Virus record (IMG/VR): IMGVR_UViG_3300009431_000115
Span: 1 to 27,235 of that record
Strand: one strand, 5' to 3'
From: a virus
Length of the DNA: 27,235 nt
Within the stretch, counting starts at the first letter, position 1; each line of letters opens with the position of its first letter. Below, one piece after another: positions 5,481 through 16,950 of the stretch. The notes beneath the pieces are model-generated. The model ran no database searches and was not told the origin of the DNA. It saw only the letters and a list, made by a program, of their open reading frames with translations. Both the position numbers and the translations under genes were made by a program.

Positions 5481-6170
5481 ATGGCAAAGAAGGACAACGG
5501 CAAGATCACGAGGAAGGACCTGGCGGGGACGGCCGAGGACCTTAACAAGGTGCTGAGGCTGTATCCTCCCATCGGACTCCTGGAGGGGGAGGAGTACCCT
5601 CCGGAGGATGAGCTGAAGGAGAAGACGCAGGAGGAGATCGACGAGGTTGTGGATGCTCTCCTGAAGAAGGCCGAGCCGAAAAAACTGAAGGAGTCAGAAC
5701 TCCGGGAGAGGATCCTCCTGGAGTCCGACCAGCTGATGGACAGTGACGACGTCCGGCCGAACACCCGGAAGGTCGTCCAGCTCCTGATCGCAGAGTCCAA
5801 GGCTCCGAAGGAGGACCCGGAACCGGCTCCGGCCGAGCCCGCTCCCGAGCCGGAGAAGAAGGAGAAGAAGGAGAAGAAGGAGAAGAAGGAGAAGAAGGAG
5901 AAGAAGGAGAAGGAGACCAAGCCCAAGAAGAACCTCCCGGCACCTCTCCGCCGGTTCACCCGTCAACAGGCATTCGCAGACGCAATCCGGACCAAGCCGA
6001 TGACGGACGAGGAGCTGGTTGCGGCCGCAGACGAGCTCTATGCGGAAAAGAACGGGGGGAAGTTCAACCCGAAGGAGGCCAAGTGGGCCCACAAGATGGG
6101 GATGTCCCTCCTGGTGGCTCTGGATCTCGTGGACACGGATGCCGAGGGGAAAATCCGGTACAGGGGCTGA
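5481..6170 (+). CDS. Hypothetical protein with Lys/Glu repeat linker
   Basis: A 229-residue protein in three parts. The N-terminal 115 residues are acidic and helical. A linker of Pro/Ala/Glu followed by seven KKE-type triplets comes next, and then a basic C-terminal domain of about 85 residues (starting near RRFTRQQAFADAI) that could be a small winged helix. The linker is built from a 9-bp DNA repeat. It is the first gene after P2 and has a strong AGAGGAGG. No family recognised. A flexible charged linker between two domains is common in DNA-associated phage proteins. Confidence 0.75.
   Translation: MAKKDNGKITRKDLAGTAEDLNKVLRLYPPIGLLEGEEYPPEDELKEKTQEEIDEVVDALLKKAEPKKLKESELRERILLESDQLMDSDDVRPNTRKVVQLLIAESKAPKEDPEPAPAEPAPEPEKKEKKEKKEKKEKKEKKEKETKPKKNLPAPLRRFTRQQAFADAIRTKPMTDEELVAAADELYAEKNGGKFNPKEAKWAHKMGMSLLVALDLVDTDAEGKIRYRG
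5853..5912 (+). repeat. GAGAAGAAG microsatellite, 6 full copies
   Basis: Six exact copies of the 9-bp unit GAGAAGAAG plus six further bases encode the Lys/Glu linker of the surrounding gene. The unit is a multiple of three, so copy-number change would alter linker length without breaking the frame. Confidence 0.95.
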
Positions 6171-6177
6171 AGCTGAA

Positions 6178-7236
6178 ATGATGGGACGTCACGGACTCTC
6201 GGTGAGAGGGGACAGCCTGTACTGTCCCCTCTCCTTTTCTCTGGATTCCTACTGGAATTGCCTCAACGACTGCTGGCATTGCTACCTCCGTCGTCTCAAT
6301 CATACCTGGGGGACGGACCTCCGTCCCACGGATCCGGAGGAGACCCGGAGGAAGCTGGAGAGGACCCGTTCCGGGAAGAGTCCCTTGAACCAGTGTATTC
6401 TTCAGAAGAAGACTATCCGGTTTGGGAACAAAGCCGACCCGTTCCAGCCGGCCGAGAGGGAACACCGGGTGAGCCGGGACCTCCTGGAGATCCTTTCCGA
6501 CCTCGATTGGAGTGCGGTTATCCAAACGATGTGTACGGAAGTCTTGATGGATTATCGTTCCCTGATCGTAGACAATCGGGAGCGGTTCATCGTCCAGGCT
6601 ATTATAAGCCCGGGAATGGGCCAGGATTGGGAGGTCCTCGAGCGACGACGTACTACACCAGTGGAGGACCGATTGGATCATCTCGTGGCTCTCCGGGACG
6701 ACGGGGTGGAAATAGGAGTGAACGGAGAACCGTTCATCCCAGGGTATCATACACCGGCAGATTTTGAGAGGACGATCCTGGCCCTGAAGGAACGGGGGAT
6801 CGACCGGTACAACACCTACAATCTTCATCTGAATTGGTTTGTCGCAGACAGGCTTGCGTCTATCGGGCTGGACGTCGAGAGGATCTGGAGGGAGAAACAG
6901 GACGACCGGTGGAGGGAGACCCTCCGGACCATCATTGAGATCTGCGACCGGAACGGGATCCGGCTCGGTTGTCCGGATTTCGTCAACTCCGGAGACCACG
7001 TGGAGCCCTTCAACACGTGCTGCGGGATCGACGTCCCGAGTCCGACGACGTTCAACGCAATAAACTGGAAGAGACGGATTCAGAAGGGGGAGGATCCGGA
7101 AAGGGTCTTTCGGCTTTCCTGGGACGGGATAGGAGACCGGGAGCTCGGGCAGAAGGTCTTTGACGGGACGACAGACGAGATGTACACCCTGAAGGATGCG
7201 GGACTCCGGGGAAAGAAGGAGGGGCTGTGGGATTAG
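6178..7236 (+). CDS. Radical SAM protein, SplB-like (first)
   Basis: A 352-residue radical SAM enzyme. The 4Fe-4S motif CLNDCWHC gives C28, C32 and C35 in CxxxCxxC spacing. Further on comes GNKADPFQPAE, the signature of the COG1533 (spore photoproduct lyase, SplB-like) family. The C-terminal part carries an adjacent cysteine pair (NTCCG, near residue 283) that could bind a second cluster or metal. Two ATGs (6178, 6181) are possible; both precede the same motif. It is followed, with a 10-base overlap, by a PLP enzyme and then a second SplB-like protein, which suggests one pathway. Family members act on DNA, RNA or protein; the substrate here is unknown. Confidence 0.85.
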   Translation: MMGRHGLSVRGDSLYCPLSFSLDSYWNCLNDCWHCYLRRLNHTWGTDLRPTDPEETRRKLERTRSGKSPLNQCILQKKTIRFGNKADPFQPAEREHRVSRDLLEILSDLDWSAVIQTMCTEVLMDYRSLIVDNRERFIVQAIISPGMGQDWEVLERRRTTPVEDRLDHLVALRDDGVEIGVNGEPFIPGYHTPADFERTILALKERGIDRYNTYNLHLNWFVADRLASIGLDVERIWREKQDDRWRETLRTIIEICDRNGIRLGCPDFVNSGDHVEPFNTCCGIDVPSPTTFNAINWKRRIQKGEDPERVFRLSWDGIGDRELGQKVFDGTTDEMYTLKDAGLRGKKEGLWD

Positions 7237-8102
7237 CTGTTCAGATGCTTCCTACCCCAACGGAATGGTACGAAACCGCAGAGGGAGTTCCGATCCTCGT
7301 CAAGAGGGAGGATCAGTGCACTCCCGAGGGAGGACCTCCTTTCAGTAAAATGAGAGGGGTCCGAGCCTACTTCTCCCGGATCCGGGAGGAGGGAGCTCGG
7401 CAGGTGATATACGTCGAATCCGCGGTGAGTATGGCCGGGTGGGGAGCTGCGTGGATGGCTCGTCAGGAGGGGATGGAGTGTATCATATTCGATCCCCAAT
7501 ACAAGGGGGAGAATCCTCCCCTGCTCGAGGTCCACCGGAAGCAGTGGGACGACCTCGGAGCCCTCCGGATCCCGGTCCAGGCCGGCCGGACTTCCGTGAA
7601 CTGGTACATGGCCCGACGGTGGAGAGACGAGAATGCTCCCGGAGCCGTCCTCCTCCCGATTGGTTTGAACCTCGAGGAGTCCATACAAGCTGCGAAGGAC
7701 GAGGCCGGCTTGATGTCGACCCGGCCGGGAAGCGTGGTGGTTTGCGTAGGTTCCGGGACGATTGCGGCCGGTTTGATGGCTGCTTTCAGCCCGCTCGGGG
7801 TCGATGTGTACGGGATTCTTGTCCGGGAGGGGAACGTCCGGAGGAAGGTCCGGAAGATGTACCAGATGGCCGGGGTCATCCCGGAGGGGCTCCTCGGGGG
7901 ACCCGGGAGACTCCTCCTCGAGGATCCCGGGTGGGACTACGCGAAGCCGAGCCGAGTCCCCTGTCCTTTTCCTACCCATCCGTGGTATGACGGGAAGGCC
8001 TGGGAGTGGCTGGAGACGGAGGCGCCTCGACTGCCGCAACCGATTGTATTCTGGAATATAGGCAGACTTCCATGCGTGATGGATACTACTACTGGGAGCT
8101 GA
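7227..8102 (+). CDS. PLP-dependent enzyme, ACC deaminase/D-cysteine desulfhydrase-like
   Basis: A 291-residue fold-type II PLP enzyme. Matching the COG2515-like pattern are LVKRED (near residue 24), a Lys in SKMRG (near 41) that would form the Schiff base, a segment ESAVSMAGWGAAWMA in the place of the usual substrate-binding SN-x-G helix, and a glycine-rich phosphate-binding loop CVGSGTIAAGL (near 173). Relatives remove or exchange amino or thiol groups on small amino acids. The GTG start at 7227 follows AAGGAGG and overlaps the preceding stop; an ATG at 7245 is an alternative. Its place between two radical SAM genes suggests it makes or uses an amino acid-derived intermediate for them. The exact reaction cannot be told. 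Confidence 0.75.
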   Translation: MGLAVQMLPTPTEWYETAEGVPILVKREDQCTPEGGPPFSKMRGVRAYFSRIREEGARQVIYVESAVSMAGWGAAWMARQEGMECIIFDPQYKGENPPLLEVHRKQWDDLGALRIPVQAGRTSVNWYMARRWRDENAPGAVLLPIGLNLEESIQAAKDEAGLMSTRPGSVVVCVGSGTIAAGLMAAFSPLGVDVYGILVREGNVRRKVRKMYQMAGVIPEGLLGGPGRLLLEDPGWDYAKPSRVPCPFPTHPWYDGKAWEWLETEAPRLPQPIVFWNIGRLPCVMDTTTGS

Positions 8103-9481
8103 GGAGGTCCGTGGCGGGATTGGTTCCTCGTCGTTCTCTGCTGGCTCCTTTGGGGAAGGCGAAGACCGGAGCCGTCCGGGAGAAGGGAAGGAAAAGCAAT
8201 TATCATCAGTTCGATCTGAAAGACCGGGAGTGGAAGAAGCTGGAGAGACTCCTCAACACCGAGGAGGTCAACTCCTTCCTCGAGATATCCCTCCGGGCTG
8301 CGGCCTGTCCTATGCCTTTAAATCTCGATACGTGGGACGGTCTCCGGTGTCCGTTCGGTTGTATCTACTGCTATGCGGATGCCCGCCGGGCAAGCCTCTA
8401 TACGGCCTTTTTCGACAACTCCAAGAGCGTCGGGATCCGGCACTGTAATCCGGATTTCTACAAGAAGAGGTTGGATGCGATATTCTACGGGAAGGAGTCC
8501 TCCTCCAACCCGGTGTCCCGAGCCGTGGCTCAGAGGATCCCGATGCGGTTCGGGATCCGATTCGAAGACTTCACCGGAGCCGAGAGACGGACCGGGGTGG
8601 CCCTGGAAATGCTCCAATACCTCGGCTCCCTCCAGTATCCCGTTATGATCAATACCAAGAGTGCTCTCCTCGGCCGGGACCCCTACGTCCGAGCTCTGGC
8701 GGACAACCCGGCTCGAGCCGCGGTCCACATGACCCTGATCTCCTCGGACGATTCGATCCTGTCGAAGCTGGAGCCCGGGGCACCGAAGTTCCGGGCACGG
8801 CTCCTGGCTATGAAACAGCTGGTCCAGGCCGGCGTCCGGGTGGTTGCCCGGATAGAGCCCTATATTGTCTTTCTGACGGACTCCCGGGATGCCGTGGGGG
8901 AGTATATGGAGGAGATCAGGGAGGCCGGAATCCGGCACATTACTTTCGATACATACAGCCATACAGCTAACTTGAACCCGGGTATTCGGAATGCCTTCGA
9001 AAGGAAGGGGTTCGACTTCGAGAGGCTGTACCTCCTCGGGTGCGATTCCCAGCCACTCGGTTCCCTCCTCCTCGGGGAGTTTATGAGGATGTTCCAGGCC
9101 GAGGGGTTCTCCTGCTCGACGTTTGACCTCGGGAATGCTCCCCTGAACAGCCAGACGATCTGCTGCGAAGTCGGGGATTGGTTCGAGGAGGACGGGTTCA
9201 ATTGGGGGAGTGCCGTCACCGCGGCTCGGTTCATTATGGAGAAGTCCCCGGAGCCGGTCAGGTGGAAGGACTTCGACGAGATGGTCACGACCCGGGGGAG
9301 ATGGCTCTCGGAACCTCTCTACAAGAGCGTCAAAGCCCTGTGGAATATGAGGGGCAATACTGCTTACTCGATAGATTGGGTGCCCGGGCTGGTTCCCGCA
9401 GGATGGGACCCGGACGGGGTGGTCTGGAAATACGAACCGAGGACGGACTTCCGTCGAAAAATGTTGGAGGGTCTTTTATGA
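8072..9481 (+). CDS. Radical SAM protein, SplB-like (second)
   Basis: A 469-residue radical SAM enzyme with CPFGCIYC (C93, C97, C100). The later pattern (INTKSALLGRD, then a strand ending MTLISSDD, then an LEPGAP turn and a VVARIEPYIVFLTD strand) fits the COG1533 SplB-like barrel. Like the first copy it has a C-terminal adjacent cysteine pair (TICCEVGD). It has about 90 extra residues before the cluster motif. The ATG at 8072 lies inside the end of the PLP gene (31-base overlap), with only a weak ribosome binding site; the longer frame upstream is a shadow of that gene. It is probably translated with the PLP enzyme. Substrate unknown. Confidence 0.8.
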   Translation: MRDGYYYWELRRSVAGLVPRRSLLAPLGKAKTGAVREKGRKSNYHQFDLKDREWKKLERLLNTEEVNSFLEISLRAAACPMPLNLDTWDGLRCPFGCIYCYADARRASLYTAFFDNSKSVGIRHCNPDFYKKRLDAIFYGKESSSNPVSRAVAQRIPMRFGIRFEDFTGAERRTGVALEMLQYLGSLQYPVMINTKSALLGRDPYVRALADNPARAAVHMTLISSDDSILSKLEPGAPKFRARLLAMKQLVQAGVRVVARIEPYIVFLTDSRDAVGEYMEEIREAGIRHITFDTYSHTANLNPGIRNAFERKGFDFERLYLLGCDSQPLGSLLLGEFMRMFQAEGFSCSTFDLGNAPLNSQTICCEVGDWFEEDGFNWGSAVTAARFIMEKSPEPVRWKDFDEMVTTRGRWLSEPLYKSVKALWNMRGNTAYSIDWVPGLVPAGWDPDGVVWKYEPRTDFRRKMLEGLL

Positions 9482-11300: not shown

Positions 11301-12237
11301 GGACCTTTCTCAATCCTTCCTCTTCGTCGAAGACCGGGTGGAGACCGGGGGAGCCCTCGGGGACATGATCGTGTCGGTCCCTTTGGAGACCGGGGTCCGG
11401 GGAGCCGTCCCGAGCTCGAAGCTCCTCGAGTTCCTCGGGAAGAGTACGGACGAGGAGCTCGGAATCGAATCGGATGGGAAAGAGCTCCTCCTGTCCGGGA
11501 AGAGGGTGAAGGTCGGGATTCCGATCTCAGACCTGGACTCAGCCTCCTGGCGGGAACACGACTGGCCGGAGAAGGGGTGGGAGAAGGTTCCGGACGGTTT
11601 CCTGGAGTCTGTCCGTATTGTATCGGAGTCTGCTGGGGATAATCTCTCGCAACCTATCTTCACGATGGTACACGTCACCCAGCAGTATGTCGAAGCCTCC
11701 GACAACTATCTCTTCTCCCGGGTCACTTTGCCGACAGCTCTCTCCGGAGATGGGTTTCTGCTTCCGGCAGCTCGGGTCCGGTTCCTGGAGTCCCTGGAGC
11801 CGGCCGAGTACGCGGTTTCCCCGTCCTGGGTGTATTTCCGATCCGCAGAGGGAGGCCATATCGCTTTCCGGACGTTTGACGGGAAGTATATCGACCCGGA
11901 CCGAATCTTCCCGGAGGGGGAGGAGATTGCCTTCCCGAGCGGAATCGGGGATGCCCTGGACCGGTCTGCGGTCTTCGTCGACCCGGTGGCTGGGAGAAGC
12001 TACTGTAAAATCAAGATCGAGAAGAACAAGGCCGAGATCGAAGCCCGGGGAGTGGAGGGATGGATCCGGGAGAAGGTCCGGACCCGGTATGAGGGGAAGG
12101 CTCTCTCTCTGCTGGTCCGGCCGCGGCCGTTCCGGGAGGCTCTCCAGTTGACGAATCGGGCCATTGTAGGGGATTCCTCCCTGATGTTGAAGGGGGACCG
12201 GGTGATGTATATCGTGTGGTTGCCGGCCGATGAGTAA
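11224..12237 (+). CDS. DnaN-type DNA polymerase sliding clamp
   Basis: A 337-residue protein of the bacterial beta-clamp type, which encircles DNA and tethers the polymerase. The start (MAKVNRKILLETLKRGAAGL), the domain-1 pattern VRGAVPSSKLLEFLGK and the closing strand SSLMLKGDRVMYIVWLP match the order in DnaN proteins, with three repeated domains of about 110 residues. It is slightly shorter than cellular DnaN. The chosen ATG follows GAGAGGAGGAAAACC; the frame is open upstream but without a better site. It overlaps the end of the acyltransferase gene and, by eight bases, the next gene. It should be loaded by the clamp-loader ATPase at 15118. Confidence 0.8.
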   Translation: MAKVNRKILLETLKRGAAGLKGKEIEDLSQSFLFVEDRVETGGALGDMIVSVPLETGVRGAVPSSKLLEFLGKSTDEELGIESDGKELLLSGKRVKVGIPISDLDSASWREHDWPEKGWEKVPDGFLESVRIVSESAGDNLSQPIFTMVHVTQQYVEASDNYLFSRVTLPTALSGDGFLLPAARVRFLESLEPAEYAVSPSWVYFRSAEGGHIAFRTFDGKYIDPDRIFPEGEEIAFPSGIGDALDRSAVFVDPVAGRSYCKIKIEKNKAEIEARGVEGWIREKVRTRYEGKALSLLVRPRPFREALQLTNRAIVGDSSLMLKGDRVMYIVWLPADE

Positions 12238-13441
12238 AGGCGGGTTTTTCGATACGGATGAGCTCCCGGCCGGCGGGACCGGGTGCGGGTATACGTGCTT
12301 ACTCCGGGACGGGTGCGAGTCTCCGGCCATGCCTCCTTCCGGGGAAGGGGAGAAGGACGTCCTGTTCGTGGCCGAGGCGCCCGGAGCAGACGAGGACCGG
12401 AAGAACACTCAGCTGGTCGGGAAGATCGGCCGGGAGTTCCGGGAGATCCTGGAGGAGGAGTTGGACTTCGACCTCGACCGGGAGGCTCGGAAGACCAACG
12501 GGGTCCGGTGCCGACCTCCGAAGAACCGGACACCTACTCCGGAGGAGATAGCCGCGTGCCGATCCCATATCTGGGAGGAGATCCGGGAGCACCGTCCCCG
12601 GGTTATCATACCTCTGGGAGGGGTGGCCCTGGAGTCCCTGATCGGAGACCGGTGGAAGAAGGACCTCGGAGGGATCTCCCGGTGGAGGGGGTTCCGGATC
12701 CCGGATCACCGGGCCGGAGCCTGGATCTGCCCTACCTGGCACCCGAGCTACGTGGCCAGGTCCCGGAACGACAAGAAGGGATCCGCGGTGGAGCCTCTGT
12801 TCATCGATGACCTCCGGCAAGCCCTCCGGAACCGGGAGCAATCCCTTCCCTCCCCGGTCCTGGAGTCCGACGTCCGGGTGGAGAAGGACCCGGACCGGGC
12901 AGCTCGAGCTCTCCGCCGGCTTCCGGACGGGATCTATGCGGTGGACTTCGAGACCACCGGGCTCCGTCCTCACAACGACGGGCACCGGATCGTGTGCGCA
13001 GCCGTCTCCAACGGCAGGGAGACCCTCTCCTTCCCGGTGGAGGGGAGAGCCGAGAGGTTCCTGGCTCAGTTCATGGGGGATGAGGGGAAGAAGAAGGTGG
13101 CCCAGCATATCCAATTCGAGGATATGTGGGCCGGAGTCCGGCTCGGGACCCGGGTCCGGGGATGGGTATGGGACACGATGTTGGCCGGACATATCCTGGA
13201 TAACCGTCCTGGGGTGACCGGGCTGAAGTTTCAGGCCTTCGTCCGGCTCGGGCTCGTAGGATACGATGAGGACGTGGGTCCCTTCCTCCAGGCGAAGGGA
13301 AAGAGCGCAAACGATTTTAACCGTATCGACAAGGCAGATCCGGATAAAGTCCTCCGGTACTGTGGGATGGATGCCCTGGCCGAGTTCCGGTTATTCGAGC
13401 AGCAGGAGGTAGAGCTCCGTGCTAACGACATCCCGATTTGA
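12230..13441 (+). CDS. Family-4 uracil-DNA glycosylase fused to 3'-5' exonuclease
   Basis: A 403-residue fusion. Residues 15-200 are a family-4 (iron-sulfur) uracil-DNA glycosylase: motif AEAPGADED (near 49), VRCRPPKNRTPTPEE, and WHPSYVARS (near 170). Cysteines 94 and 110 have the C-x15-C spacing of family 4; N-terminal cysteines 19, 23 and 29 would complete the cluster. Residues 230-400 are a DEDDy proofreading exonuclease of the Pol I type: DFETT (D239, E241), QHIQFED (D298), and YCGMD (Y377, D381). The polymerase domain is a separate gene downstream. The fused protein could check for uracil and misinsertions during synthesis. The start overlaps the clamp gene. Confidence 0.88.
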   Translation: MSKGGFFDTDELPAGGTGCGYTCLLRDGCESPAMPPSGEGEKDVLFVAEAPGADEDRKNTQLVGKIGREFREILEEELDFDLDREARKTNGVRCRPPKNRTPTPEEIAACRSHIWEEIREHRPRVIIPLGGVALESLIGDRWKKDLGGISRWRGFRIPDHRAGAWICPTWHPSYVARSRNDKKGSAVEPLFIDDLRQALRNREQSLPSPVLESDVRVEKDPDRAARALRRLPDGIYAVDFETTGLRPHNDGHRIVCAAVSNGRETLSFPVEGRAERFLAQFMGDEGKKKVAQHIQFEDMWAGVRLGTRVRGWVWDTMLAGHILDNRPGVTGLKFQAFVRLGLVGYDEDVGPFLQAKGKSANDFNRIDKADPDKVLRYCGMDALAEFRLFEQQEVELRANDIPI

Positions 13442-13763
13442 TCAGGCTCTGTATGAGGATCTATATCCTTCGGAATACCAACCCGGGGAGTATACCGGAC
13501 CCTTGCCGGATGATCCGCGGGTCCCGAGACCGGATGCTCTGTTCATCGTCGTTTTTCATCACGACGTCGACAACGTGAAGAAGGGGGGAGTCCTCTTGGG
13601 TCCGACGGCTATCCTTTGGGACGTCCTCGAATACGTCCCGGAGATTGGGGACGCAGGGTTCTGGATTGTGGAGCTCGTAGGGAAGACCCGGACCCGGATC
13701 TTCCGGTGGCACCCGGGGAGGGAGCTCTGGAAGAGAGTGGCCAGGGGGAGGGCAGCTGAATGA
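13419..13763 (+). CDS. Hypothetical protein between exonuclease and polymerase genes
   Basis: A 114-residue protein starting at a GTG eight bases after AGGAGGT and overlapping the exonuclease gene by 23 bases. It has a beta-rich centre (ALFIVVFHHD, AGFWIVELVG) and a basic C-terminus. No family recognised. Its location between the two halves of the split polymerase, and its tight coupling (ATGA at 13760-13763) to the polymerase gene, suggest a replication accessory, but nothing in the sequence shows how. Confidence 0.7.
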   Translation: MLTTSRFDQALYEDLYPSEYQPGEYTGPLPDDPRVPRPDALFIVVFHHDVDNVKKGGVLLGPTAILWDVLEYVPEIGDAGFWIVELVGKTRTRIFRWHPGRELWKRVARGRAAE

Positions 13764-15121
13764 TGAGGACGGCCCACGCAAATCAATTGTTGCTCCAAGG
13801 CGCCCGGGCACTGGCCGTGGCAGAACAGACCGGGATCCGTATTGACCTGGACTATTGCTCCCGGACAAAGAACCATCTGTCCCGGAGGATCGACCGGCTG
13901 GAGGAGACCTTCCTGGAGGAGACGGACCTCGGGAGGGAGTGGAGATATTGTTTCCGGAAGATCAAAACCGGATCCGATTCCCAGCTGCTGGAGGTCGTCC
14001 AGAAGATGGGGGCAACGACGGGGAAGCAGACGGCCAAGGGGAAGGAGTCCGTCAGTGCCGAGGCTCTCCAGGAGTCCGGGGTCGACGGTTTCCGGGAGTT
14101 GATCCGTCTCCGGAAGTGGAGGAAGGCACGGTCCAACTACCTGGTAGCAATAGAGAGGGAAGTCGTCTCTCACTCGGACGGGTTATGGTATCTCCATCCC
14201 TTCTTCCACCTGAATACGGTCCGGACATACAGGTCCTCCTCCTCCAACCCGAATTTCCAGAACATCCCTATGCGGGATCCGGAGATCAAGAAATTCATCC
14301 GGAGGGCTTTCGTCCCACGGCCGGGTCGGGTCCTCCTTGAGGCAGACTTCAAGGCCCTGGAGGTCGGAATCGCGGCTTGTTACCACCGGGACCCCACCAT
14401 GCTGGAGTATCTTCGAACGGATCCTGGAGCCATGCACTCGGACACGGCTCGGAAGCTCTTCCTGCTCGGGACAAAGTATGGGGTCACGAAGGAACTTCGG
14501 TATGTAGCCAAGAACCGGTTCGTGTTCCCGGAGTTCTATGGTTCCTGGTTCCGGGAATGTGCTCAGAATATATGGGCCGTCCGGAACGATTTCTTGGTGG
14601 GAGAGAAGACTCTCAGCCAGCACCTCCGGGAGGAGGGTCTCCGGTCCTATGCTCGGTTTGAGGAGCACGTGGAGGAGATCGAGAGGGTCCTCTGGGACAA
14701 GAGGTTCCCGGTCTACCGGGACTGGAAGGAACGGTGGTGGAAGGAATACCTCCGGCGGGGGTGGTTCGATACCCTGACGGGGTTCCGGTGTTCCGGGGAG
14801 TTGGAGAGGAACAAGGTCATAAACTACCCGGTCCAGGGCTCGGCCTTCCATTGTCTCTTGAAGACCCTGATCTGGGTCGTCCCGATGCTAGAGACGGAGA
14901 AGTGGAAGGAGGTCCGGCTCGTGGGCCAGGTCCACGATTCTGCTCTCTTCGATCTTCCGGAGGAGCTCGTGGAGGGGTGGTTCGGAGTCCTGGTCCAGAT
15001 CGTTCGCCGGCGCCTCCCCAAGGCGTGGCCCTGGATCGTGGTACCGATGGGGCTGGACGCAGAGAGGTCAGAGGTCGACGGGTCCTGGTACGAAATGAAA
15101 GAAATGGAGGAGGCCGCATGA
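13760..15121 (+). CDS. Family A DNA polymerase, polymerase domain only
   Basis: A 453-residue family A polymerase without a 5' nuclease or exonuclease domain. The thumb/template region includes TYRSSSSNPNFQNIP (156-170). Motif A has D196 in LLEADFKALE; motif B is RYVAKNRFVFPEFYG (R247, K251, Y260); motif C is VHD at 391-393. The usual QGTAAD motif is QGSAFH here. In this phage type the K-to-Y distance in motif B is nine, one more than in E. coli Pol I. The exonuclease lies on the glycosylase fusion two genes upstream, so the holoenzyme is split. Two ATGs, 13760 and 13763, precede the same sequence; the first overlaps the preceding stop. Confidence 0.92.
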   Translation: MMRTAHANQLLLQGARALAVAEQTGIRIDLDYCSRTKNHLSRRIDRLEETFLEETDLGREWRYCFRKIKTGSDSQLLEVVQKMGATTGKQTAKGKESVSAEALQESGVDGFRELIRLRKWRKARSNYLVAIEREVVSHSDGLWYLHPFFHLNTVRTYRSSSSNPNFQNIPMRDPEIKKFIRRAFVPRPGRVLLEADFKALEVGIAACYHRDPTMLEYLRTDPGAMHSDTARKLFLLGTKYGVTKELRYVAKNRFVFPEFYGSWFRECAQNIWAVRNDFLVGEKTLSQHLREEGLRSYARFEEHVEEIERVLWDKRFPVYRDWKERWWKEYLRRGWFDTLTGFRCSGELERNKVINYPVQGSAFHCLLKTLIWVVPMLETEKWKEVRLVGQVHDSALFDLPEELVEGWFGVLVQIVRRRLPKAWPWIVVPMGLDAERSEVDGSWYEMKEMEEAA

Positions 15122-16950
15122 GTCTAGCAAACAAGTATCGACCGGAAAGTCTGGATCAGGTTATCGGGAACGAATCCGTGGTGGATTCTATTGAATCCCT
15201 CCTTTCCGGGGACGATCCTCCCCGGGCCTGGTTGTTCCACGGTCCTCACGGGTGCGTTAAGGGAGATACTAAGATTTACGATCCGGTGAGAAAGGAGGAA
15301 AAACCAATAAAACAGTTGTGGGAAGAAAAACTACCTTTCCACGTTATTTCCTTTGATTCTGTTTCCGGAAAGATGGTAGTTTCGGAAGCTCTGCCGCCGG
15401 TCCGGTATTCTCCATCCCGTTTGTTTCAAGTAGAAACTTCTCAATCAGCTTTCTTCGTGACCGACGAACACCGGTTCCTTTCTCTGACTGGGGAATACCT
15501 TTCATTGAAGGAATTGATCGAGAACGGATTTTCCGAAGTCCCTCTTCTGTCCACTTCGGTTTCTTCCCCAGAAGCTCTACACCAAGATGGTCTCCATTAT
15601 TGTGGAAAACCAAAAGGTTTTCCGGCCGATTGTCGTCCTTTTTTCCGTTTAGGTGATGGACAACTTCCTTCTTTTTTAAGCGGCGTTTTAAGAGCTGTTC
15701 CATTATTAATCGGTGTTCTGGTACATATTTTCCGTCAATTCGGATCTGAACATATCCGTCCGCATCCGTTCTTTTCCCTCCTTTCCAAAAATTATTCTTT
15801 TCTCCCATCTGAGCGCCTCCGTTTCGAATATCCGTTTTTGTCCGTCGTAGGGAACGACGAACCGTTCTTGGATCGACGTGAAAAAATGTTGCTATTTCTT
15901 GCATTGTCCATCCTCGTTTATATCTCAGAGAGATATTCAGATCATTCTTCGGAGATATTTTCCTCATCTTTATTGACCAACCTTCTTTCCTTTGATAGAT
16001 TCCCTTCGGCATCTTCTTTATCCTCCATGGTTAGTGATTCATCCTTATTCATGCCTACTAGAATAAAGAAAATAAGGGAAAAAGGCAAGGAAGAATATTT
16101 TGATTTTCATGTTCCCTATTTCAATAATTATTGGGCAGGAGGTTTATTTCATCACAATTGCGGCAAAACAACCCTGGCCCGGATCATCGCGCGGGAGATG
16201 GGCTGCACGCACGAGATGGACCTGCAGGAGGTGGACAGCGCGCAGTACACGGGCGTGGACAACGTGCGGGACATACGGATGTCCGCCAATCTCATGCCGA
16301 TGGGCGGAAAGATGCGCGCATGGATCATGGACGAGTGCCACCGCATGAGCCCACAGGCGCAGGATGCCCTGCTCAAGCTCCTGGAGGATACTCCTAAACG
16401 GTCTATGTTCCTGCTGGCGACGACGGACCCGGGGAAGCTCCTCCCGACGGTCCGGAGCCGGTGCGTCCAGTTCCAGGTGGAGAGCCCGGAGGAGGACGTC
16501 CTGGCCAAGCATCTCCGGGACGTCTCCCGGAGGGAGAAGGTCCGGCTCTCCGGGGAGCTCGCAGAGCAGATAGCCCGGGATTCCCTCGGTTCCGTCCGGG
16601 ACGCAATGATGATCCTGGAGCAGGTTATCCGATTGCCGGAGGAGAAGAGGGAGGAGGCTGCTCGGAGGATGGCTGAGAAGACGGTCCAGACCGTCGAGCT
16701 GTGTCGAGCCCTGATGTCCCCGAAGACGAAATGGGCATCCGTCGCCAAGATCCTCGAGGGATTGAAAAACGAGGATGCGGAAGGGGTCCGGCGGGCCGTC
16801 ATCGGCTACTGTGCCGCAATCCTCCGGAAACGGGACAACCCGCAAGCCTTCCTGGTGGGGGATACGATGTTGAGCGCCGGGATTATAGGGAACGGGTGGC
16901 CGGGAATGACTTTGATTTGTTACCGGGCCGTGATGGAAGTTTCCGTTTAA
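15118..16950 (+). CDS. Clamp-loader AAA+ ATPase (DnaX/RfcS-like) containing an intein
   Basis: A 610-residue precursor; removal of the 302-residue intein leaves 308 residues, the usual size of a phage or archaeal small clamp-loader subunit. The N-terminus has the RFC-type start LANKYRPESLDQVIG. Walker A would read GPHG-CGKTT after splicing. Walker B is WIMDECHRM; the RSRC motif follows TDPGKLLPTV. Its job is to open the sliding clamp and place it on DNA. The ATG at 15118 overlaps the polymerase stop (ATGA). Without splicing the ATP site is destroyed, so the intein must splice for activity. Codon use in 16159-16390 differs from the rest. Confidence 0.93.
   Translation: MSLANKYRPESLDQVIGNESVVDSIESLLSGDDPPRAWLFHGPHGCVKGDTKIYDPVRKEEKPIKQLWEEKLPFHVISFDSVSGKMVVSEALPPVRYSPSRLFQVETSQSAFFVTDEHRFLSLTGEYLSLKELIENGFSEVPLLSTSVSSPEALHQDGLHYCGKPKGFPADCRPFFRLGDGQLPSFLSGVLRAVPLLIGVLVHIFRQFGSEHIRPHPFFSLLSKNYSFLPSERLRFEYPFLSVVGNDEPFLDRREKMLLFLALSILVYISERYSDHSSEIFSSSLLTNLLSFDRFPSASSLSSMVSDSSLFMPTRIKKIREKGKEEYFDFHVPYFNNYWAGGLFHHNCGKTTLARIIAREMGCTHEMDLQEVDSAQYTGVDNVRDIRMSANLMPMGGKMRAWIMDECHRMSPQAQDALLKLLEDTPKRSMFLLATTDPGKLLPTVRSRCVQFQVESPEEDVLAKHLRDVSRREKVRLSGELAEQIARDSLGSVRDAMMILEQVIRLPEEKREEAARRMAEKTVQTVELCRALMSPKTKWASVAKILEGLKNEDAEGVRRAVIGYCAAILRKRDNPQAFLVGDTMLSAGIIGNGWPGMTLICYRAVMEVSV
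15344..16012 (-). CDS. HNH homing endonuclease, antisense inside intein
   Basis: A 222-residue protein on the minus strand, wholly within the intein. It starts MPKGIYQRKE, as in many phage HNH proteins. A helix-turn-helix follows (residues 33-60: GWTMQEIATFFHVDPRTVRR) and then an HNH_3-type core: GYVQIRIDGKYVPEHR (86-101), EVVHHLNGKKDDNRPENL (116-133) and a final His near 142. The likely metal/catalytic residues are H119/H120, N128 and H142. GGAGGA on the minus strand (16021-16026) lies eight bases before the ATG, so it can be translated by itself. It would cut intein-free clamp-loader alleles and so spread the intein. The last 70 residues lie opposite the N-terminal splicing domain. Confidence 0.88.
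   Translation of the reverse strand: MPKGIYQRKEGWSIKMRKISPKNDLNISLRYKRGWTMQEIATFFHVDPRTVRRSLRRTKTDIRNGGAQMGEKNNFWKGGKRTDADGYVQIRIDGKYVPEHRLIMEQLLKRRLKKKEVVHHLNGKKDDNRPENLLVFHNNGDHLGVELLGKKPKWTEEGLRKIRSRSIPSMKGIPQSEKGTGVRRSRRKLIEKFLLETNGMENTGPAAELPKLPSFRKQNQRK
16021..16026 (-). promoter_or_regulatory. Ribosome binding site of the antisense HNH gene
   Basis: TCCTCC on the + strand reads GGAGGA on the minus strand, eight bases before the HNH ATG. Farther upstream on the minus strand, TTGAAA (16119-16124) followed after 17-19 bases by an AAATATT-like stretch could serve as a promoter, but this is weak. Confidence 0.7.
16159..16390 (+). other. Foreign-codon tract next to the intein (likely co-conversion tract)
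   Basis: From the +1 Cys of the extein to about 16390 the codon choices change: GGC, GCG, CGC, CTG, CAG, AGC and ACG replace the GGG, GCC, CGG, CTC and TCC used elsewhere, and GCGC words become frequent (for example around 16189, 16239 and 16316). The protein sequence stays a normal clamp loader, including Walker B. Phage-typical codons return after the CCTAAACGG at 16393. No such change is seen in the 135 bases before the intein. This fits one-sided co-conversion of donor DNA during homing repair. The right border is approximate. Confidence 0.7.

Follow-up and report, generated by a model that had tools for sequence, protein, structure and literature searches.

The window, i.e., the whole 27,235-nt stretch of viral DNA analyzed here (IMG/VR record IMGVR_UViG_3300009431_000115), carries on its plus strand a gene coding for the precursor of a phage DnaX/RFC-like clamp-loader ATPase (15118..16950), recognized by matches to TIGR02397 and phrog_5846. 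This gene is interrupted by an intein of 302 aa (15253..16158, plus strand), supported by homologous inteins at a similar site. Entirely within the intein, the minus strand contains a second gene (15344..16012) encoding a 222-aa HTH-HNH protein, a putative homing endonuclease identified with HNH_3, HTH_23 and phrog_20891.

Several other genes of the window were noted. In a single ORF (12230-13441), a uracil-DNA-glycosylase domain is joined with a PolA-type 3'-5' exonuclease; a distinct gene after it (13760-15121) encodes a family A polymerase. The cluster at 6178-9481 encodes two radical-SAM-like proteins, both matched under the curated cut-off, and a PLP-dependent (PALP) enzyme, and is possibly a modification pathway. 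A 229-aa ORF (5481-6170) contains a lysine/glutamate-rich low-complexity stretch (KEKKEKKEKK).

The clamp-loader intein

The clamp-loader precursor is 610 aa long with the intein and 308 aa when spliced, and removal of the intein raises its TIGR02397 bit score from 176.6 to 199.4. Translation across the junctions shows that the intein splits the Walker A motif (GPHG|CVKGDTKI...GLFHHN|CGKTT). The N-extein (15118..15252, plus strand) ends in the first half of this motif, GPHG, and the C-extein (16159..16950, plus strand) starts with the remainder, CGKTT.

The intein begins with Cys1, ends in His-Asn302 and is followed by a +1 Cys. AlphaFold2 predicted a confident splicing domain made of two parts, both with a pLDDT of 95-98: an N-terminal part of residues 1-90 (15253..15522, plus strand), which contains invariant columns, and a C-terminal part of residues 268-302 (16054..16158, plus strand), which contains block F Asp284 and the terminal Asn302. 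Between them, a sense linker of about 170 residues (15523..16053, plus strand), which faces the HTH and the HNH core of the antisense gene, is predicted to be disordered, with little fold and a pLDDT of 39-67 (mostly 40-54). Cys1, block-B His73 and Asn302 are invariant in 57 aligned inteins. Pfam Intein_splicing matches the window intein alone weakly (1.8e-4, under the curated cut-off) and 52 of the 57 inteins of the comparison set, with a best E-value of 3.6e-16. Furthermore, Foldseek aligned the predicted splicing domain with RecA and DnaB mini-inteins (E about 1e-5, probability 1). The element therefore has the features of a class 1 intein, i.e., an N-terminal Cys1, a block-B His, a C-terminal Asn followed by a +1 Cys and, in the predicted structure, a HINT splicing fold.

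A Pfam search for endonuclease families in the sense intein found none, and the linker matched no family at all. No endonuclease domain of the kind found in large inteins thus lies within the intein polypeptide, as the HNH is antisense. These results bear out the sequence-only reading, which had proposed a complete intein free of endonuclease motifs on the sense strand.

Precise and optional insertion at a conserved site is documented for related terminase inteins by their empty alleles. For the clamp loader of the window, no intein-free relative was retrieved with the C-extein as the query, and the precision of the insertion is judged from the uninterrupted match of the spliced protein to the DnaX family.

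The antisense HTH-HNH gene

The minus-strand protein matches HNH_3 and HTH_23, both over the Pfam curated cut-off, and the phrog_20891 HNH endonuclease at 3.2e-20. Its DNA-binding HTH domain occupies about residues 20-58 (15839..15955, minus strand) and its catalytic HNH core about residues 76-162 (15527..15787, minus strand), as delimited by HNH_3, alignment and AlphaFold2. The AlphaFold2 model has a mean pLDDT of 80, rising to 93-97 in the HTH (21-57) and in the HNH core (80-147). In the comparison set, HNH_3 was matched by 55 of 55 antisense proteins, and H100, H120, N128, N132 and N139 are invariant across these 55 sequences. The protein therefore has the HNH core and catalytic residues of an HNH homing endonuclease, in agreement with the earlier description of a 222-residue protein bearing an HTH and a full HNH. 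Its top solved fold in Foldseek was I-HmuI (PDB 1U3E), an intron-encoded HNH homing endonuclease. The two proteins have the HNH core in common, and the fold match is weak (E = 0.09, probability 0.96), so that their structural likeness is suggestive only.

By its coordinates, the C-terminal tail of the endonuclease (15347..15526, minus strand) faces intein residues 31-91, i.e., the block-B region, and it is alike in the window and in L004, a related clamp-loader contig. Both strands are truly coding there, as the endonuclease ends with 60 residues whose codons overlap those of intein residues 31-91. In terminase-type antisense HNHs (L009, L010, L028, L030, L125, L126), a C-terminal stretch of about GDARLIEILL..LG.DSPYLLGT.RHLKKAGI is conserved; it faces the N-terminal splicing part of the intein and is absent from the clamp-loader type.

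A Shine-Dalgarno sequence, GGAGGAT (16020..16026, minus strand), was read 7 nt ahead of the antisense ATG, consistent with the properly spaced GGAGGA noted earlier. Among 61 representatives, 56% had a Shine-Dalgarno match of at least 5 nt before the chosen antisense start, compared to 16% in a control taking the best of an equal number of internal starts. A scan of the window for an antisense promoter gave no convincing candidate, with one 9/12 match and matches in the region no more frequent than about chance.

Relatives, coding phase and transfer

A single-protein search with the window intein retrieved a twin contig as its sole match. Relatives were first sought with the HNH protein alone, then with an alignment of seven antisense HNHs. 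The HNH-only search returned four contigs (L004-L007) of another clamp-loader lineage, in which the site and the architecture are the same and the HNH is 57% identical to that of the window. It also returned three terminase inteins (L008-L010), each with an antisense HNH gene. The alignment revealed at least 528 confirmed viral relatives. Among the best 80 of these, 73 have a long host ORF open opposite the HNH together with intein junctions, two of these loci (L047 and L081) being cut off at the N side; five others are free-standing, and two lie on the same strand, out of frame, in cytosine methylases. Because the search profile was built from antisense HNHs, 73 out of 80 is not a census of HNH genes.

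The architecture occurs in cultured phages, namely the Pectobacterium phages Ymer, Abuela, Sabo, Koroua, Amona, Taid and Pappous, Dickeya phage Setonix and Pseudoalteromonas phage PHS3. A search of bacterial genomes with a terminase-type HNH alignment found it in all four confirmed loci, including those of Enterobacter cloacae DSM 26481 and an Acinetobacter. The host genes encode mostly terminase large subunits, but also three clamp loaders, helicases and a Sak4-like ATPase. Nearly all insertions are located at two adjacent Walker A positions, G..G|[CST]GK[ST] and G...GK|[ST]; Walker A sites of this kind were already known for terminase inteins (PMC5050341). In a tree of the HNH core, the antisense HNHs cluster (4 changes vs 15.4 in shuffles). 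With 90 columns and 43 of 71 branches open, this tree is too short to resolve origins and does not demonstrate a single origin of the antisense HNHs.

The antisense phase is identical in 81 of 81 loci, comprising 80 inteins and a methylase insert, L015, that is not an intein, and the phase of the four bacterial loci is that of the viral ones. The L015 insert (L015:2547-4850) lies in an N6_N4_Mtase methylase gene and carries an antisense HNH without intein splicing motifs. We recoded the antisense proteins, keeping for each its own protein sequence and codon usage. The sense-compatible phase then stayed open with an average probability of 0.003, the value for the window being about 0. By chance, 0.16 open phases out of 62 were expected; 62 out of 62 were observed, and we therefore rejected the possibility that the frame is open by chance. 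The intein-coding phase opposite the HNH has 0 stops in 13,861 codons, and the other two antisense phases have 504 and 676, i.e., 3.6 and 4.9 per 100 codons. In free-standing HNH relatives, stops occur in the corresponding phase at 5.5 per 100 codons, and L011 is the one relative out of 18 in which this phase is open.

In this phase, position 3 of the HNH codon faces position 2 of the intein codon, and position 3 of the intein codon faces position 2 of the HNH codon, so that selection can be read on each strand from codon positions. Within the HNH span, differences at host codon positions 2 and 3 numbered 150 and 41, respectively (seven disjoint pairs, p = 4e-16), compared to 70 and 655 outside it (six of those pairs, p = 3e-120). 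Changes between close relatives thus gather at the HNH wobble base inside the span and, as is usual for a gene, at the host wobble base outside, indicating protein-level selection on the antisense frame. The sequence-only reading had named, as an observation to look for against it, homologous inteins with a broken minus-strand frame and a conserved sense linker. The opposite was seen, as the window and L004 share 57% identity in the antisense protein and 39% in the sense translation; across the clamp-loader group of the window, these identities are 0.52-0.57 and 0.39-0.41, respectively. Furthermore, the identity of the sense linker in the relatives of the window and in several distant pairs is about the level given by the HNH sequence alone. 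Closer pairs exceed this HNH-only level, as expected before saturation. Together with the predicted disorder, these values agree with the earlier view of the sense middle as filler. As far as sequence comparison can tell, the antisense frame is the one protected by selection in the middle of the intein, and the sense linker is passive.

The window intein has a GC content of 41.3% vs 61.4% for the exteins, which fits the expectation for a newcomer. Inteins of one terminase group, sampled from separate metagenomes, show at most 10 differences in 933 nt, compared to up to 27% in the 60 nt of extein next to them on either side. Between L075 and L079, the 933 nt of intein are identical and the 60-nt flanks differ by 17-20% on each side. 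Likewise, the inteins of an Enterobacter (L126) and an E. coli MEI003 (L127) prophage are 92% identical, and their terminases 69-74%. Intein-free relatives of these two terminases have the exact empty site (L128, L129), and the spliced terminase of Ymer aligns unbroken with hundreds of intein-free phage terminases. Identical inteins in diverged terminases, together with empty alleles, indicate that the intein and its antisense gene home as a unit. The HNH gene is thus coded within a mobile element that has spread laterally, as judged from related copies and from the GC contrast in the window. The correlation between HNH and intein distances is weak (Mantel r = 0.35) and no better than that between HNH and extein distances, so that endonucleases may be swapped between inteins.

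In the RefSeq annotation of L127 (E. coli MEI003, NZ_CP071263.1 152240-153544), the terminase is an incomplete pseudogene and the HNH a separate gene on the other strand. Similar misannotation probably hides many such inteins.

Interpretation and comparison with known systems

We consider it highly probable that the locus is a composite homing element using both strands, with a splicing intein on the plus strand and a separate HTH-HNH homing endonuclease gene on the minus strand. Its computational signs are all those of a functional parasitic element that continues to spread. The plus strand would be translated within the clamp-loader precursor, in which the mini-intein (about 90 + 35 residues) would fold around its unstructured linker, excise itself and join GPHG to CGKTT, a ligation proposed to restore an essential P-loop protein. 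Opposite the linker, the minus strand would be transcribed and translated as a gene of its own, with its own ribosome-binding site, to give the HTH-HNH endonuclease. During mixed infection, this enzyme would cleave the intact P-loop coding sequence of a phage lacking the intein, and repair off the occupied copy would insert the intein and the endonuclease gene jointly.

Other explanations were weighed against this composite element. The HNH gene could be an independent parasite that moves alone and uses the mini-intein as a safe harbor, as the weak correlation of HNH with intein distances and the existence of relatives that are free-standing or inserted in methylases might suggest. We find this improbable, since whole inteins including the HNH are transferred with sharp ends at the intein borders, and since the antisense phase is constant in the inteins and open in only one of the 18 free-standing relatives (L011). 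A role of the HNH in DNA packaging or replication rather than homing would fit the predominance of terminases among the hosts, and HNH proteins are known as packaging partners (work cited in PMC4422536). However, the host in the window is a clamp loader, others are a helicase and a Sak4-like ATPase, many relatives lack the HNH, and the transfer pattern is that of homing, which makes such a role very unlikely.

Two further alternatives were rejected. If the antisense ORF were a fossil or a compositional by-product of the sense gene, with the intein alone functional, the weak promoter evidence would be accounted for. Yet protein-level selection in the linker acts on the antisense frame, the key HNH residues are invariant over 55 sequences and the antisense gene suffices to account for the linker identity seen in distant pairs, leaving this explanation hardly any credibility. 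Conversely, the insertion could be a tolerated open-frame insert that does not splice, as proposed for the methylase insert of phage ShiLan. Inserts with hidden HNH genes do exist (PMC11855218), and L015 is apparently an antisense example devoid of splicing motifs. Against this stand the invariance of Cys1, the block-B His and the terminal Asn in 57 inteins and the predicted splicing fold matching RecA/DnaB mini-inteins; moreover, the interrupted Walker A motif should leave the ATPase inactive unless spliced. We regard a non-splicing insert as extremely unlikely.

Beyond the window, we think it likely that the composite elements represent an old, large and hitherto unreported class of inteins, defined by a splicing protein on one strand and a homing endonuclease on the other, always in the same antisense phase. 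Its members would have invaded the P-loop of phage proteins such as terminases, clamp loaders, helicases and annealing ATPases, across many groups of bacteria. This class would have stayed largely hidden because annotation pipelines report a broken host gene or the HNH gene alone, which explains one class of wrong annotations such as the terminase "pseudogene" of MEI003. Such an arrangement breaks with the usual view of the endonuclease as a domain of the intein. With splicing and mobility placed on two strands and in two products, the timing and amount of endonuclease could follow its own promoter, independently of the host gene. It also offers a clear-cut natural example of a long antisense overlap between two coding frames, where codon positions reveal the selection acting on either strand. 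Finally, the availability of occupied and empty alleles in cultured phages and E. coli prophages makes homing by the antisense gene directly testable.

Like ordinary large inteins, the composite element has splicing blocks, a homing endonuclease (HNH_3 in the sense HNH intein of the dCTP deaminase of cyanophage CL131; PMC6293099), P-loop sites and a sporadic distribution. LAGLIDADG terminase inteins are known at Walker A, and the P-loop sites are shared with the mycobacteriophage terminase inteins at sites a and b (PMC5050341). The endonuclease of ordinary large inteins is a domain of the intein, whereas in the window it is a separate gene on the opposite strand and the intein has only a disordered linker.

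The methylase inserts of phages ShiLan and Pacc40 conceal an HNH gene that is read from the host strand in another frame, and have no splicing domain (PMC11855218). The element of the window resembles them in that the insert concealing its HNH gene leaves the host frame uninterrupted, and its HNH matches that of ShiLan. In contrast, the ShiLan HNH lies on the host strand, in a methylase host and without a splicing domain; the element of the window has an antisense HNH and a splicing domain and is thus not of the ShiLan type. Among the relatives collected here, same-strand out-of-frame HNH genes were observed in methylase ORFs (L070:3315-4889, L101:2874-4838 and L027:3312-5291), the hosts being two C5 methylases of viral contigs and one methylase of cyanophage Cr-LKS3. 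These inserts resemble the published ShiLan insert, although the phages differ. The L015 insert is perhaps its antisense counterpart.

Nuclear group I introns carry antisense His-Cys homing endonuclease genes, as exemplified by L2066 of Didymium squamulosum (PMC9548176). Both L2066 and the element of the window combine a self-splicing element with an antisense homing endonuclease, cutting of the empty site being experimental for L2066 and inferred here. Unlike the element of the window, L2066 is an RNA intron located in the rDNA of a eukaryote, uses a His-Cys enzyme and has no second protein frame on the sense strand. In brucellaphages, according to the part of the report available to us, an HNH gene called "intein-encoded" lies "out of frame" within the terminase and overlaps its middle, a situation resembling that of the window (PMC4422536). 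In that part, it is listed as forward, like the structural genes, which is compatible with either a same-strand or an antisense gene. The literature that we searched, with partial coverage, yielded no description of an antisense endonuclease gene in an intein. Antisense endonuclease genes are thus known in introns and out-of-frame HNH genes in methylases, and as far as we could find, the combination of an intein with an antisense endonuclease gene is new.
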